28,784 bases of DNA from a virus. The notes beneath the pieces were generated by a model. The model was not told the DNA's origin, searched no databases, and saw only the letters and a list, made by a program, of their open reading frames with translations. Where the stretch lies: positions 1 to 28,784 of the IMG/VR virus record IMGVR_UViG_3300041411_000260, one strand, 5' to 3'. The translations under genes and the position numbers were made by a program. This document shows, piece by piece, positions 9,517-14,500 of the stretch. Every line of letters begins with the position of its first letter. The stretch's first letter is position 1.

Positions 9517-9545
9517 AGTATTTCCCATGATTGTGGGAATGTCAA
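9517..9545 (-). promoter_or_regulatory. Early promoter with embedded repressor operator
   Basis: On the minus strand a perfect TTGACA (-35, 9540-9545) and AATACT (-10, 9517-9522) are 17 bp apart. The palindrome TTCCCA-N6-TGGGAA (9522-9539) fills the spacer, so a bound repressor would directly block RNA polymerase. A further copy of TTGTGGGAAT (9531-9540) recurs at 9562-9571, 31 bp away, inside the repressor gene start, a possible second operator half-site. Confidence 0.85.
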
Positions 9546-9551
9546 CTCGCC

Positions 9552-9896
9552 ATGGAGACGTTTGTGGGAATTGGTGATCGCCTAAAAGAAGAACGCGAGC
9601 GCTTGGGGTTTAATCAGACCGAGTTTGCGGCGAAAGCCGGTGCCTCGAAGAACAGTCAGTACAACTATGAGAAAGGCGAACGAAGCCCCGATGCCAATTA
9701 CCTCGCGGCAGTAGCCGAACAGGGCGTTGACATTCTGTACGTCGTTACCGGTCAGCGGATGCCTGTGGCCGAAGGCGTGCTGTTGGTAGAAGAAATGGAG
9801 ATGTTGCTGCACATACGTGGCTTGGGTGATGAGGACAAGGGGGCAGTCAAGCGTCTGCTATGGGCCGTCGCCCAAAACTCTGACAAGAACATCTGA
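9552..9896 (+). CDS. Prophage repressor, Xre-type HTH (114 aa)
   Basis: Maintains lysogeny by blocking the divergent early promoter. The N-terminal Xre/Cro-CI helix-turn-helix spans about residues 6-62 (IGDRLKEERERLGFNQTEFA, then SKNSQYNYEKGERSPDANYL), followed by a short helical C-terminal dimerisation part. It has no S24 peptidase domain, so it should not be self-cleaved on RecA activation; induction would need another trigger, as in P2. The ATG at 9552 is chosen over an in-frame TTG at 9531 that lies inside the operator; the Shine-Dalgarno is weak. The first codons carry a second TTGTGGGAAT site, which may allow autoregulation. Confidence 0.88.
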   Translation: METFVGIGDRLKEERERLGFNQTEFAAKAGASKNSQYNYEKGERSPDANYLAAVAEQGVDILYVVTGQRMPVAEGVLLVEEMEMLLHIRGLGDEDKGAVKRLLWAVAQNSDKNI

Positions 9897-10544: not shown

Positions 10545-10946
10545 TTGGACGTTGAAAAAGAGATTAAAGCGGCGAAACGGTTGAGAGTGCGGGGCCTGAT
10601 CATCGCGGCTGTGAGCATTGTATTTATTGTGGTCTCGCTGCTGCTTTCGATCTATGGCTACGCCGAGTTCCAGGGGTGGGACCGGGTTAAAAACGTCGTG
10701 GGCAACATCTATTCCCATACCCAATTTCCAGTACTGAGCTCTATCTGGAAAATTGCTGCTCAAGCTGATTTGAATGAACCCTTGCAGCTGCAAAACCTTT
10801 GGTTTTTTGGTGAGATCGTAATTTTTATGGTGGGTGCAGCGATGGTGGGCACTGCTAATAGAACCCTCATGGATATTGCCAAGGCTTCGCACGACGCAAC
10901 ACAGGAACGCCGGAAGGAACAGATCAAGAAGCAGCAGGAAAGCTGA
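10545..10946 (+). CDS. Two-TM lysogenic-strand membrane protein (133 aa)
   Basis: A 133-residue protein with a basic N-terminal helix (KEIKAAKRLRVRG), TM1 at about residues 17-41, a periplasmic or cytoplasmic loop of about 40 residues and TM2 at about 84-104, then a basic C-terminal tail (ERRKEQIKKQQES). The start is TTG at 10545, supported by AAGGTGAG just upstream; no in-frame ATG is nearby. It lies on the same strand as the repressor but after a terminator, so it should have its own promoter. Its position as a single lysogenically transcribed gene with membrane topology suggests a moron, for example superinfection exclusion, but no family was recognised. Confidence 0.65.
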   Translation: MDVEKEIKAAKRLRVRGLIIAAVSIVFIVVSLLLSIYGYAEFQGWDRVKNVVGNIYSHTQFPVLSSIWKIAAQADLNEPLQLQNLWFFGEIVIFMVGAAMVGTANRTLMDIAKASHDATQERRKEQIKKQQES

Positions 10947-11022: not shown

Positions 11023-11050
11023 AATAACCCGGCTATGCCGGGTTATTTTT
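11023..11050 (+). terminator. Terminator between the membrane gene and the TIR-caspase operon
   Basis: AATAACCCGGC, loop TAT, GCCGGGTTATT followed by TTT: an 11-bp stem, symmetric enough to act in both directions. It separates the plus-strand membrane gene from the convergent minus-strand cargo operon, whose last stop codon (11049-11051) touches it. Confidence 0.92.
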
Positions 11051-11162
11051 ATGGTTGATTTACGGGCCGTGGTGTCGGACGCGGAGGCGGTGGTGGTGGA
11101 CGTACATCTCCTCTCACGTTTCGAGTTGGTGGTGGAGGGGGTGGCGGTGGCTTTTGTCTCAT
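11049..11162 (-). CDS. Polyproline microprotein, last gene of the TIR-caspase operon (37 aa)
   Basis: A 37-residue, highly basic, proline-rich peptide. It has a run of eight prolines at residues 5-12 and a run of six at 22-27, then PRPTPRPVNQP; it contains no acidic residue except one Asp. TAGGAG, overlapping the stop of the preceding gene, gives a textbook ribosome site about 8 nt before the ATG, which argues that the frame is translated. No TM segment or signal. Polyproline runs stall ribosomes without EF-P, and proline-rich peptides bind SH3-like or WW-like folds, ribosomes or membranes. A regulator, sensor or toxic peptide is possible, but this is inference. It was below the usual ORF length cutoff. 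Confidence 0.6.
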   Translation of the reverse strand: MRQKPPPPPPPPTRNVRGDVRPPPPPPRPTPRPVNQP

Positions 11163-11173
11163 GCCTTTGGCTC

Positions 11174-11698
11174 CTATAGCTTTGGTAATGTGATCACCGC
11201 ATAAGCTATCACGGCGATACCTGCTGAGATGATGAGAGCTAAATTACAATAGTATAAGCTTGAGCTTTTTCTATCGTTATTAATGGTGCAAATCGTGGCG
11301 CAATTCATATAGTTTTCATAGTAATATTTGCGTAAGTCTTGAGCTACTTTCTCTTCGGAGTTTTCTTCGTCGCTGTAATAGTCAATGAGGTCTAGTCTGT
11401 ATTTTTCAATGGTGTTAGGTGCAGGCAAATTTTCATCCATTTTGCCAAGCAAAGCATCAATAAAAAAATATACCCCTATTGCGAGTACTGATATCGAGAT
11501 GGCTAATATAGTTAGAAACCATATTTTCGCACCCAATGTCAGTGCGGCTCTATCTCCGCCAATTATGACGGAGTAAAAGCCCGCGATTGCGATTATAGTC
11601 GCTAGAGGTATGCTTAATCGGGCAAAAATCTGTTCCTTTCTCGCGAGCTCCTGGAAGTAGATTTTTTCAAAGTGTTCAAATAGTTTGTCGATGGTCAA
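11174..11698 (-). CDS. Three-TM protein of the TIR-caspase operon (174 aa)
   Basis: An amphipathic N-terminal helix (1-27) leads into TM1 (28-47) and TM2 (57-83), then a charged cytoplasmic segment (85-145, EKYRLDLIDYYSDEENSEEK) and TM3 (146-170). Helical-bundle membrane proteins of this layout are common as effectors in bacterial defence operons (SLATT-like or other TM effectors), where they would perturb the inner membrane. The start is TTG at 11698, with AAGGA 8 nt upstream, right after the caspase stop (14 bp gap). It is AT-rich like the rest of the operon. I cannot assign it to a Pfam family; it may be an effector, or a membrane anchor for the protease. Confidence 0.7.
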   Translation of the reverse strand: MTIDKLFEHFEKIYFQELARKEQIFARLSIPLATIIAIAGFYSVIIGGDRAALTLGAKIWFLTILAISISVLAIGVYFFIDALLGKMDENLPAPNTIEKYRLDLIDYYSDEENSEEKVAQDLRKYYYENYMNCATICTINNDRKSSSLYYCNLALIISAGIAVIAYAVITLPKL

Positions 11699-11712
11699 GT
11701 TTTAGTCCTTGC

Positions 11713-12684
11713 CTAAATTCTTTTGTTGTTTATTAATTTCCAGTAGTGTTCGCCTAATACTGTGAGCTTGCAAGACTTGGAGTTCATCGCGGCAAAATAC
11801 ATGTGATCTTCGCCTACAGGCTTGACCAAATTGAGGCGGTTGAGCTTCTGAAGAATAGCAAATTTTCTTGTGTTCTCCGGATTCGGTTCGATTCCGTGAT
11901 TAGGTGCTGGTGGCTGAGGTTCAAAACTGGGGTCTAATGCAAACTCAGAGTTTGCAGTTTCAAAAAGCTCACTTATTTGTCTCAGTTCGGATAACTGTAT
12001 CGGTGGCGATACTTTTCTTAATGAGGTAAAAGCCTTAACGTTTGTTTTGAAAACCGGTCTTTGCTCCCAAAGACTTAATGATTGGTCGATGTGAGCATAT
12101 ATACTGCCTGGAGTAATGTCGCCAAGTAAATTGGCTGCGCCACCGTTGAGAGCATCAACAAATAATGATGTAAATACTCCTGAGCCGTTTACCTCCTCAG
12201 CGTACTGCCCTTCAGTGGAGGCGGTTAGAATTGTCATCCCTTCGGTTAGCAGAGCTTTGTCGCCGAGCGTCTTTGAGGATCCAGCAATTCCTGAATGACA
12301 GCTATCTAGTACAATAATTTTATTAATGGCTTTGGATGAGTTGGCAATGTCAAGTATCTCTTGCAATGGCATCCCGTCATCGCCGTCAGCACACTCTGAT
12401 GTTAGTAAGTAACCGCCGGTGTCTTCGACGTGACCGTGACCAGCGAAATAAAAAAGCGCAATTTGGCAATCGTCTTCGAATAGCTTTCGAATGTATTCTT
12501 TTAACTCTTTTCGGGAGATTGAACTTGCTGCGTCGACGGAGGTTATATGTTTTACGTCAAAGTTAAGTTCGCCGTCCATGTGCCGCTCAAGCACTTGGTT
12601 TACCGCGTATGCATCGTTGACGCAGCCATATAGCTGGTTCAGGTGTTCGTAGTAATTGATCCCCACAACTAATGCTTTTTTCAT
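11713..12684 (-). CDS. Caspase-like (peptidase C14) protease, candidate effector
   Basis: A 323-residue protein with a metacaspase/caspase-like p20 fold: the N-terminal ALVVGINYY, the catalytic dyad His83 (YFAGHGH) and Cys129 (VLDSCHSG), and the downstream STEGQYAEE segment (about 165-175). Residues about 230-275 form a proline-rich linker (FEPQPPAPNHGIEPNPEN) and the C-terminal 60 residues (ILQKLNRLNLVKPV...KLTVLGEHYWKLI) look like a winged-helix or ligand/partner domain. Cys-His proteases of this class cleave after basic residues. Directly paired with a TIR-like gene by ATGA overlap, it fits the effector of type IV Thoeris, in which the TIR product N7-cADPR activates a caspase-like protease that degrades cell proteins. 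Pairing is clear; the ligand is inference. Confidence 0.9.
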   Translation of the reverse strand: MKKALVVGINYYEHLNQLYGCVNDAYAVNQVLERHMDGELNFDVKHITSVDAASSISRKELKEYIRKLFEDDCQIALFYFAGHGHVEDTGGYLLTSECADGDDGMPLQEILDIANSSKAINKIIVLDSCHSGIAGSSKTLGDKALLTEGMTILTASTEGQYAEEVNGSGVFTSLFVDALNGGAANLLGDITPGSIYAHIDQSLSLWEQRPVFKTNVKAFTSLRKVSPPIQLSELRQISELFETANSEFALDPSFEPQPPAPNHGIEPNPENTRKFAILQKLNRLNLVKPVGEDHMYFAAMNSKSCKLTVLGEHYWKLINNKRI

Positions 12685-13103
12685 GAGCGGTTTGCTGCGT
12701 TTTTTCCTTCCCCCATCATTTGGGTGACTGCATTAGCAATCCCGTCCCAAGTCCAATTAATGACTCTGTTTCTATTAAGTCCTGCTGGAAGTGTGCTGTT
12801 GGAGTTTGCCTCGTCAACATATACGCCAAAAATTGGAACGTTCTGAGAACGAGCCATTTCTATTTCTTTAACTACACCTGTGGCGGTGGCCATATGGCGA
12901 CCGACCAAGACTATTAGAAGGTGCGTTTTATTGATTTTTTCTTTTACAATCGCTTCCCATTGAGACTGAGGCATGGGGCTTTTTGCAGACCAGTCTTCAT
13001 GTTTGAAGGGGGTTTTGGAATGCCAAGCCTGACCGGCAAATAGATTTTTGTGGTCGCTGTTATTATCAACGTCAAAACTGATAAAAGCGCGTGGTTCAGC
13101 CAT
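12681..13103 (-). CDS. TIR-like (DUF1863/ThsB type) protein
   Basis: A 140-residue single-domain protein with a Toll/interleukin-1 receptor-like fold of the ThsB/MTH538 type: strand A RAFISFDVDNN, the motif HEDWSAKSPMPQSQW, strand C HLLIVLVGRHMA, the helix VVKEIEMARS with the candidate catalytic Glu80 or Glu82, and strand D VPIFGVYVD. ThsB-type TIRs convert NAD into a cyclic ADP-ribose signal on phage infection. The ATG at 13103 is chosen by AAGGGA 8 nt upstream; a longer frame would run into the promoter region. Its stop overlaps the caspase start, so the two are coupled. It is in an AT-rich segment unlike the tail genes. It lacks an extra sensor domain, so phage recognition must be in the TIR fold or in a partner. 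Confidence 0.88.
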   Translation of the reverse strand: MAEPRAFISFDVDNNSDHKNLFAGQAWHSKTPFKHEDWSAKSPMPQSQWEAIVKEKINKTHLLIVLVGRHMATATGVVKEIEMARSQNVPIFGVYVDEANSNSTLPAGLNRNRVINWTWDGIANAVTQMMGEGKNAANRS

Positions 13104-13234
13104 CTTATAATCCCTTAACCAAATGAATGAAAGGGGAGTGTGACTCCGTGACGGCATTTTGCCAACAGGGTTATAAAATAATTTATAACTGACTGATATT
13201 TAATATGTTTTTTTGAAAAGAAGCGTTTTCTATT
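13104..13234 (-). promoter_or_regulatory. AT-rich leader of the TIR-caspase operon
   Basis: This 131-bp gap between gene D and the TIR gene is AT-rich. It holds the inverted repeat TTATAAA-N4-TTTATAA at 13171-13188, which could provide -10-like elements or bind a regulator. No Ogr-type dyad, and no convincing terminator after D, was seen. The operon may have its own promoter here and may also receive read-through from the late tail operon. Confidence 0.4.
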
Positions 13235-14500
13235 CTAAATGCTTTGCATTAGCTTAGAGTTTTCTCTGTCAACTGCCCGCTTTGCCGTCCTCTCACTCGC
13301 ATACAACCATCGCAACCGCCGCGGTCTGCTCTGATCCCCAGCCGTCACCGTCTTTTCTTTCCCGGTTTTCTTGTCGCGGTAGTACGCGATGATCCCGGTG
13401 AAATCGCCTTTGTTCTCCTCGGCCAATTCCTCAACGGTATCCTCCGGCAGCTTGCTCTCCAGCTCCAAGCTGACGGTGTAACCATTGTCCGCGCTGAGGG
13501 TGTGCTGCACATTCCCGCCATACCAGATGATTTCGTCGATCTCCGGCTTCACGCCCTGGAGCGAGTAGGTCAGTTCGGGAATCAGATCCGGCCGCCCCAT
13601 GGCCAAGGTGTAGCTGAGGGTGGCGCTGCCGCGTTGCAGACGGTTGAACTCGGCCCGAGCGGCGCGCAAGGCTGACTGGCGGTCGCTGAATGTGTGGCGC
13701 AGGTCCTTGAGGTTTTCTCCGCCGCCGGCAACGGCTTCCTGCTTCTTGGCGCTGTTTACATCATAGAAGTAGGCCCGCACACCGTCGTAGCTGTCGCGGT
13801 CGGCTTGCAGGTAGCGGTGCTGATCACCGTCGGCACGAGTGAGGGTGATGTGCGGCAGTTCGGCGCCGCTGGCGGTCTTGCCGCCGCCGGCTGGCAGGCA
13901 CAGTAAGCAGCCGGCCTTGACGGTGACTACGGCGTCGAATTCCTCGCCGACACGGCTGATCAGGTTGGCGTCAGATTCGTTGGCCTGGTCGAGCTGCAGG
14001 ATGGGTAATCCGTCAAGAGCGCCGGCGATGGTCGCGGTTAGGCCGTTGCCCAAGGCGATGTCGCCCAGGACGTCTCCGAGTGTGGTGTTGCTCCAGCTGC
14101 GTTCGCGTTTGGTCTTCAGGCCCTTGCGCAGATCCGCCGAGCGGGCGCGAATGCTCAGCACGTCTGGAGCACCGCTGTGTTCGGTTTCGTCGACGGTGTA
14201 GGTGCCTTTGTCGACCAGGCCGGTGTCGCTCCATCCGAGCCAGAGCCGAATCACGGCGCCTTTGGATGGAATGGCCAGCAGGCCGTCGTGGTCGCTGAGG
14301 GTGAGGCTCAGTTGATCGGCCTCGATGCCACGGTTATCGGTCAGGTCCAGGCTCATCAGCCGCGGGCTGATCAGTTTGGCGATGTCGTTACCGTCGACGG
14401 TGATGCGGAACGCCGGCACTGGGTAGGAGGCCTCGCGACGGTAGCGTTCGGTCGTGCCATTCAGGAAACCGGTGACGCGGGAAAGGGCGGCATCGATCAC
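13235..14500 (-). CDS. D: Tail/late control protein gpD
   Basis: P2 gpD-family baseplate-hub protein (421 residues; 387 in P2), the tail-tube-end component analogous to T4 gp27 on which the spike gpV sits. Features include the N-terminal ITVDGNDIAKLISPRLMSLD, and the long OB-like segments with SLTLSDHDG and RLWLGW that mark the family. Start is GTG at 14500, overlapping the U stop as GTGA. It is the last gene of the FI-FII-E-T-U-D operon; in P2 the ogr gene follows, but here the TIR-caspase operon does. Confidence 0.92.
   Translation of the reverse strand: MIDAALSRVTGFLNGTTERYRREASYPVPAFRITVDGNDIAKLISPRLMSLDLTDNRGIEADQLSLTLSDHDGLLAIPSKGAVIRLWLGWSDTGLVDKGTYTVDETEHSGAPDVLSIRARSADLRKGLKTKRERSWSNTTLGDVLGDIALGNGLTATIAGALDGLPILQLDQANESDANLISRVGEEFDAVVTVKAGCLLCLPAGGGKTASGAELPHITLTRADGDQHRYLQADRDSYDGVRAYFYDVNSAKKQEAVAGGGENLKDLRHTFSDRQSALRAARAEFNRLQRGSATLSYTLAMGRPDLIPELTYSLQGVKPEIDEIIWYGGNVQHTLSADNGYTVSLELESKLPEDTVEELAEENKGDFTGIIAYYRDKKTGKEKTVTAGDQSRPRRLRWLYASERTAKRAVDRENSKLMQSI

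Follow-up and report, generated by a model that had tools for sequence, protein, structure and literature searches.

Does the TIR-caspase operon of a P2-like phage end with its protease and, if it does not, do the genes that follow belong to the same defence system? We addressed this question in one stretch of viral DNA, hereafter called the window, in which four genes form a minus-strand run between a tail hub gene and a repressor-like gene. The first two encode a TIR protein and a caspase, the third a protein with three transmembrane segments (TM) and the fourth a polyproline microprotein (PP).

Two genes beyond the protease

The features of the window that the argument needs are the following:

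1-28,784: the window, a virus record of 28,784 bases (IMGVR_UViG_3300041411_000260)
13235-14500: P2-type tail hub gene gpD (profile matches)
12681-13157, minus strand: ThsB-type TIR gene (Pfam ThsB_TIR PF08937, 6.5e-10; PADLOC ThsB, 4.3e-8)
11713-12684, minus strand: caspase-family protease gene of the type IV Thoeris kind (Peptidase_C14 PF00656, 7.6e-20)
11706-11710, minus strand: ribosome site AAGGA of the TM gene, directly past the caspase stop and 7 nt before the TTG
11174-11698, minus strand: three-TM gene, 174 aa, TTG start (TM/PP family, phrog_36961)
11171-11175, minus strand: ribosome site AGGAG of the PP gene
11049-11162, minus strand: polyproline microprotein gene, 37 aa, ATG start
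11023-11047: hairpin between convergent transcription units, scored terminator-like for the plus strand only
9531-9896: repressor-like gene (profile match)

An earlier note on this DNA had claimed that the operon extends past the protease, with a three-TM gene 14 bp beyond it that starts from TTG with AAGGA, and then a 37-residue peptide whose ribosome site lies over the TM stop. Coordinates and spacing agree exactly: TM starts 14 nt past the caspase stop, and AGGAG (11175-11171) overlaps the TM stop codon (11176-11174). The PP product is MRQKPPPPPPPPTRNVRGDVRPPPPPPRPTPRPVNQP, which combines a proline run with the motif R-x-phi-x-x-D.

The first two genes resemble a known system. According to a part of PMC12847820, the TIR protein of type IV Thoeris makes N7-cADPR, which activates a caspase-like protease, and the operon of the system is described there as consisting of a TIR gene and an effector gene. 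The window shares with it a ThsB-type TIR gene followed directly by a caspase gene with a His-Cys pair, and differs by two additional genes from a separable module. The pair in the window caspase is H83 (AGHGH) and C129 (DSCHSG), which from family knowledge we take to be the expected catalytic residues; both are invariant in all seven rows of our caspase profile (A1), which had no PDB sequence match at 1e-5. The TIR reading frame opens at 13157 and the proteins of two relatives (L002 and L008) begin with MAEPRAF, equivalent to 13103 in the window; judged by this alignment, the true start is likely 13103 (MAEPRAFISF...).

Because the hairpin is terminator-like on the plus strand only, it is doubtful as the terminator of the four-gene operon. 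A promoter scan of the window found none upstream of the TIR gene and one site overall, on the plus strand, against 3.5 expected by chance. Across the hairpin, and convergent with the operon, lies a plus-strand gene (10545-10946) for a 133-aa protein with two weak matches, to YniB (2.5e-3) and to RT-associated SLATT (0.02); it belongs to phrog_29499, to which no function is assigned.

Both additional genes are conserved

The earlier note had suggested looking for the same gene order in other genomes, and had counted absence of the pair from all relatives against its idea. In fact, the four-gene order is kept in four related loci, three from IMG/VR (L002, L003 and L004) and one from Pseudomonas kielensis (L008). 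The TM proteins of the three IMG/VR loci are 80-86% identical to that of the window. In L003 the TIR frame (735-1208) has an in-frame stop within ATGVVK*IEMA, where the other phages read through, and the caspase, TM and PP frames are all open; there, the four-gene order is thus kept with an interrupted TIR.

Codons were compared in all 10 pairs of these five loci. For TM, dN is 0.03-0.12 and dS 1.1-1.7 in four pairs, being saturated in the other six; for PP, dN is 0.07-0.23 and dS 0.66-2.3 in nine pairs, one being not estimable. Judged from these codon changes, TM and PP are both under purifying selection, and the view that the operon continues beyond the protease with two further genes is borne out. 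The PP core PPPPPPPP-TR(N/A)VRG(D/N)VR-PPPPPP is constant in the five loci and its proline codons vary synonymously, while the C-terminal end drifts.

Could PP be a chance reading of GC-rich DNA? A control test asked for an ORF of 25-90 aa with five or more consecutive prolines (P5) that starts at most 150 bases from the end of a gene. Of the 19 Pseudomonas TM genes retained in the ORF pick, 13 passed it; the 208 other ORFs with 120 aa or more in those loci all failed. Together with the synonymous variation of the proline codons, this rules out a chance reading.

TM and PP form a two-gene module

When a TM profile (A3) was searched in 398 sampled Pseudomonas genomes, 21 matched, and PP follows TM directly in 15 of these 21 loci, frequently with the core KPPPPPPPP-MRN(V/I)(R/K)xDVPLPRR-x-PP. 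Five of the six loci that lack PP have a proline-rich TM C-tail; in L120, which has no PP, the TM tail differs from those of close relatives.

A wider profile (A8) extended the family. Its matches come from 88 loci, many of which cover the same place more than once; by shared 5-mers they fall into 46 TM groups. A PP with a run of at least four prolines (P4+) occurs in 36 of the 46, as a separate gene in 32 and as a fused C-terminal tail in six, two of which have both. The fused tails are found in three groups from a Bacteroidota sample (L187, L188, L189), in a phage contig (L197), in a genome from the order of Rugamonas (L199) and in Photobacterium (L090). Such fusions, in six groups, argue for one functional unit. 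In several loci, L084 and L088 among them, a separate PP gene overlaps TM at its 3' end. Among the 10 groups without a P4+ PP, five have only proline-rich tails; the L095 group has PPs with shorter runs (P3), and the other nine are L111, L120-L123 and L127 (Pseudomonas), L180, L178 and L200. The weak matches L178 and L200 may lie outside the TM family.

PPs are about 33-63 aa long, with uncertain start codons, and P2-like copies carry one to three of them. An E. coli P2-like prophage (L104, 4651-4997) has three tandem overlapping PP genes with the position-specific motifs IEDDSK, RLVRES and FDHDD; the same three stand in the same order in L094 and L098, with close variants in L099 and more distant ones in L100 and L095. 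RefSeq annotates one of the three in the L104 record. PPs are easily overlooked, being short and, in L104, mostly unannotated. As far as gene content tells, TM-PP is a separable module, found in at least three phyla.

What do the PPs have in common? Past the first proline run (P4+), R-x-[IVLMA]-x(0,2)-[DE] occurs in 37 of 42 distinct 16-residue stretches; 2000 shuffles averaged 5.2 such stretches and never exceeded 13. With identical stretches merged and one stretch taken per TM group, R-x-[IVLM] is present in 30 of 31 (shuffle mean 11.4, maximum 21). These figures are descriptive only, since the pattern was written after the sequences had been seen and some groups, being related, do not count as independent. 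Motif-bearing PPs persist where TM identity has fallen to about 20%, which suggests that the motif binds something conserved; its target would be TM itself or a host target. The motif also offers a simple search key and a target for mutagenesis.

A membrane protein outside the named families

The hydrophobic segments of the window TM begin near residues 28, 62 and 153, and M1, Y14, E17, N141 and P172 are invariant in profile A3. The protein has no Pfam, NCBIfam or PADLOC family match. Its one hit is phrog_36961, of unknown function in PHROGs, which matches the window TM at 9.7e-7 and the relative L093 at 4.8e-22. Some relatives come closer to known effectors: L084, L092 and L100 have weak PADLOC matches to PycTM or CBASS 2TM effectors (7e-5 to 2e-4), and L084 matches NCBIfam SLATT_1 at 4e-4, below the cut-off. 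The other relatives scanned have no PycTM, 2TM or SLATT match, or only one above 0.01; of L092 and L093, two TMs with close E. coli copies, only L092 has a PADLOC match, a weak one to a 2TM effector. By hhalign, the family profile does not match a Pycsar-type TM protein. Profile A8 has no PDB sequence match at E up to 1, and a tblastn search of a phage collection was negative both for the window TM (threshold E 0.01) and for that of L093 (threshold 1e-3).

An AlphaFold model of the window TM (16 sequences; mean pLDDT 86, pTM 0.70) is all helix: a first helix, a hairpin of TM1 and TM2, a short helix and a 60-residue helix that terminates in TM3. Compared with PDB and viral folds, it resembles nothing above the usual helical-bundle level. 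The model of the fused L197 protein has the same core, confidently predicted, with a low-confidence, non-helical PP tail.

With PycTM, CBASS 2TM and SLATT effectors the family shares its nature, small multi-TM proteins beside defence sensors, and the weak profile matches of relatives; the window TM itself, by contrast, matches none of them, and we know of no polyproline partner in those families. TM is plausibly a membrane effector. On which side of the membrane would its tail lie? An N-in protein with three TMs would have its C-tail, the site of PP fusion, outside the cytoplasm, which conflicts with the separate PPs: these have no signal peptide by eye and are hence expected to be cytosolic. 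The charges past TM3 (SPRK, RR) would favour a C-in tail. The point matters, as the side that holds the C-tail bears on every model of TM-PP action.

A small two-gene layout, often with overlapping genes, also recalls a toxin-antitoxin pair, in which TM would be a membrane toxin and PP a labile antitoxin, causing addiction or abortive infection when a phage shuts off host expression. Since ribosomes require EF-P to translate long proline runs, the synthesis of PP would be stress-sensitive. The resemblance of TM to membrane effectors and the carriage of the pair by phages and plasmids fit as well, but a partner that is fused to TM in six groups, or present in up to three different versions per TM, is unusual for a labile antitoxin, and we regard this explanation as doubtful.

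Where the module occurs

TIR-caspase genes stand beside TM-PP in four lineages and in two gene orders; other copies have other neighbours:

P2-like Pseudomonas phages and G001: TIR-caspase-TM-PP
G272/L136: TM-PP-TIR-caspase
L061, a Campylobacterota MAG: TM-PP-TIR-caspase, with intergenic gaps of a few bases
L084, a Cyclobacteriaceae MAG: TIR-caspase-TM-PP
L132 and L133 (Pseudomonas): TM-PP after DO-GTPase1, GAP1-N1 with EAD1, and a caspase with EAD1
L138 and L139 (Pseudomonas): TM-PP convergent with a caspase-helicase gene
P. syringae plasmids: TM-PP next to an integrase, no adjoining caspase
Several Pseudomonas loci among those listed: TM-PP, no adjoining caspase
L137: TM-PP near a patatin gene, no adjoining caspase
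Phage contigs L195 and L196: TM-PP, no adjoining caspase
L091, a similar phage: TM-PP downstream of a repressor-like gene, no adjoining caspase
E. coli P2-like prophages (copies seen): TM-PP between gpQ and gpA, the replication endonuclease gene

DO-GTPase1, GAP1-N1 and caspase-EAD1 are presented in a part of PMC7159879 as components of a predicted conflict system. The caspase-helicase (2770-5763 in L138, 2765-5758 in L139) is a 997-aa protein that joins an N-terminal caspase domain to a Hel308-like helicase part. The neighbour of TM-PP in L137 appears, from its gene content, to be a CBASS-like locus. The L091 TM is 52-55% identical to that of the window and its PP has the same core; 6.8 kb of that 8.0-kb contig were examined.

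In the part of PMC9122126 that deals with it, the P2 gpA-gpQ interval is a hotspot of anti-phage systems, among them old-tin, DUF4238, a tested three-gene system whose proteins are unnamed and a TIR with TM proteins. The E. coli TM-PP copies seen occupy this same hotspot, and no polyproline gene is named among its systems in the corresponding main-text section of PMC9122126. The L093 stretch is matched by 20 of 5426 E. coli genomes, six of them over at least 80% of its length. Outside Pseudomonas, TM-PP is rare in the species samples: TM was found in two of 369 genomes of the Gammaproteobacteria class sample (the query genome and L178, a weak match without PP), in six of 296 from the phylum of G003 (one the query genome), in one of 150 from the phylum of G002 (the query genome) and in two of 250 from the order of G005 (one, L200, weak).

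Residence in P2-like prophages, and in L091 the position downstream of a repressor-like gene, could also point to an ordinary phage function, superinfection exclusion or lysis, with no immune effector involved. We find this very unlikely, given that TM-PP is also present in bacterial genomes, on plasmids and, in three phyla, beside caspases.

How strong is the link to caspases?

A caspase stands beside TM in 11 of the 46 groups, and none was found within 4 kb in the other 35, some of whose loci are only about 3.5 kb long. Among the 21 Pseudomonas loci, six have a caspase at most 1 kb from TM, representing four lineages once near-identical pairs are collapsed, and 15 have none seen nearby. The 119 sampled genomes contained 24 Peptidase_C14 places, or about 3 per 100 Mb. 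At this density 21 windows of 8 kb would hold about 0.006 by random placement, a figure that overstates the caspase link because defence genes cluster in islands. C14 is also the commonest Pfam family among 69 neighbours hand-picked from 172, with six members (next EAD1, with three).

Seen from the protease, the association is loose. Among the best 80 of 448 genome loci of the window-type caspase, a TIR-like ORF lies within 1.5 kb in 77, while a TM-family gene is present in three and absent from 77; in the 64 of these best 80 that are flanked on each side by 1.5 kb or more, TM-PP occurs in two. In Pseudomonas, TM-PP is found at two of 53 places of this caspase, and of the seven sampled genomes that have both TM and the caspase, the two adjoin in two. 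Thus, the window-type caspase does not need TM-PP, and TM-PP is not a constant part of TIR-caspase loci.

How should the module then be read? The explanations weighed in this text overlap partly, and the likelihoods we attach to them do not sum to one. The earlier note had raised the possibility of an undescribed four-gene subtype. What stands is that both genes are real and conserved and occur with TIR-caspase in three further lineages; they do not define a Thoeris subtype, given the 35 groups without a caspase and the three hits among the best 80 caspase loci, and TM-PP adjoins two other caspase kinds besides. A true subtype of type IV Thoeris, with TM and PP as a dedicated second arm acting only under TIR-caspase control, would suit the tight operon spacing in the window, the related loci with the same four genes, the renewed association with TIR-caspase in L136, L061 and L084, and the two Pseudomonas genomes in which TM and caspase adjoin. 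Yet no caspase was found near TM-PP in L091 or in the copies at P2 gpA-gpQ, where one TM can have as many as three PPs, and so we hold this to be unlikely.

At the other extreme, the TIR-caspase and TM-PP could be two functionally unlinked defence units that share a cargo site or islands. Defence islands do collect unrelated systems, most TM-PP copies are seen without a caspase, L137 adjoins the CBASS-like locus instead, and the caspase-helicase of L138 and L139 is convergent with TM-PP and forms no operon with it. It is harder to reconcile with three caspase kinds recurring as direct neighbours, with the rank of C14 among the scanned neighbours, and with L061, where TM-PP heads a four-gene run and TIR and caspase follow a few bases away. 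We consider this a real possibility, short of probable.

A proposed portable membrane effector

The explanation towards which we lean, by a little, is that TM-PP is an autonomous, mobile membrane effector that is gated by PP and has been repeatedly recruited by caspase systems. Its support is the co-conservation of the two genes, their fusions, the motif, the recurrence beside caspases and the residence in a defence hotspot; from these we infer a membrane-effector activity, an anti-phage role, a switching function of PP and cleavage by the caspase. A membrane effector with a proline-rich switch fits the fusions, the tandem PPs, the gene overlaps and the setting.

We envision that PP acts together with TM, sometimes as its own C-terminal tail, and that TM, on activation, would damage or leak the inner membrane. 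The PP tail or subunit would keep or switch TM through the proline run plus R-x-phi-x(0,2)-[D/E]. In P2-like prophages, on plasmids and in islands the module would act by itself; the TIR-caspase operon of the window, type IV Thoeris-like, would gain a membrane arm from it. In the simplest link, TM would be released when the activated caspase cleaves PP in its arginine-rich part, which lies between the two proline runs. Stand-alone copies would need another trigger, and cleavage by a caspase is not the general one, as 15 of the 21 Pseudomonas TM loci have no caspase nearby.

A precedent for such traffic exists. A part of PMC12799240 describes nuclease-protease pairs that were acquired by several defence systems and in which a caspase activates a pro-nuclease. 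Like these pairs and the caspase-nuclease (canu) systems treated there, TM-PP is a gene pair that moves between unrelated systems, some of the known pairs being caspase-activated (PMC12799240). It differs in its make-up, a membrane protein plus a polyproline microprotein with no enzyme seen, and in that its activation by caspases is a proposal by analogy. More tentatively, TM-PP may represent a new effector class, made of a membrane protein and its PP switch, alone in prophages and plugged into several caspase systems, in which proteolysis would open a membrane. Caspase-gasdermin death works likewise, proteolysis opening a membrane; TM-PP would differ as a two-piece effector.

Should TM-PP prove to be such a portable effector, hypothetical genes at the P2 hotspot and next to caspases would gain a name, and one could test directly whether bacterial caspases reach a membrane target. 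The module is unnamed in the family libraries searched and may be described elsewhere. In the literature covered, mostly open-access main texts, supplements aside, polyproline was not found with Thoeris, caspase or TM antiphage systems; titles listed for SLATT with a proline-rich defence protein and for polyproline in prophage anti-phage defence included nothing relevant.

Membrane proteins beside other TIR-caspase pairs

Other TIR-caspase pairs also have membrane proteins as neighbours. Those in L005, L006, L007 and L012 were considered as members of the TM family and rejected, as hhalign against the family profile gave no relation. A P5+ scan that took in the first 88 caspase loci also picked up polyproline ORFs in L024, L051 and L073, which are presumed to be chance ORFs.

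In Salmonella houtenae (L006, 6235-8966), the TIR-caspase pair is directly preceded by two genes, one for a TM protein and one that is nucleotide-cyclase-like, which reads as Pycsar-like from sequence; integrating-element genes are nearby. A Bacillus locus (L012, 9160-10179) has TIR-caspase and then a DUF6338-like TM gene, with a 35-aa ORF on the opposite strand that ends in a proline run. In L005 (6012-6604 and 6943-7947, both minus strand), the neighbour of another TIR-caspase pair is a SLATT-like TM gene; just upstream of it is a 32-aa ORF with a long proline run, giving the order PP, TM, and upstream of that ORF a further gene that reads as TIR/SEFIR-like. Finally, L007 (MT835687.1; 1585-2202 and 1608-1829, both minus strand) has a three-TM gene divergent from its TIR-caspase pair, the 3' end of which overlaps a proline-rich ORF in another frame; since this TM is unrelated by hhalign, several families of membrane proteins may have polyproline partners.
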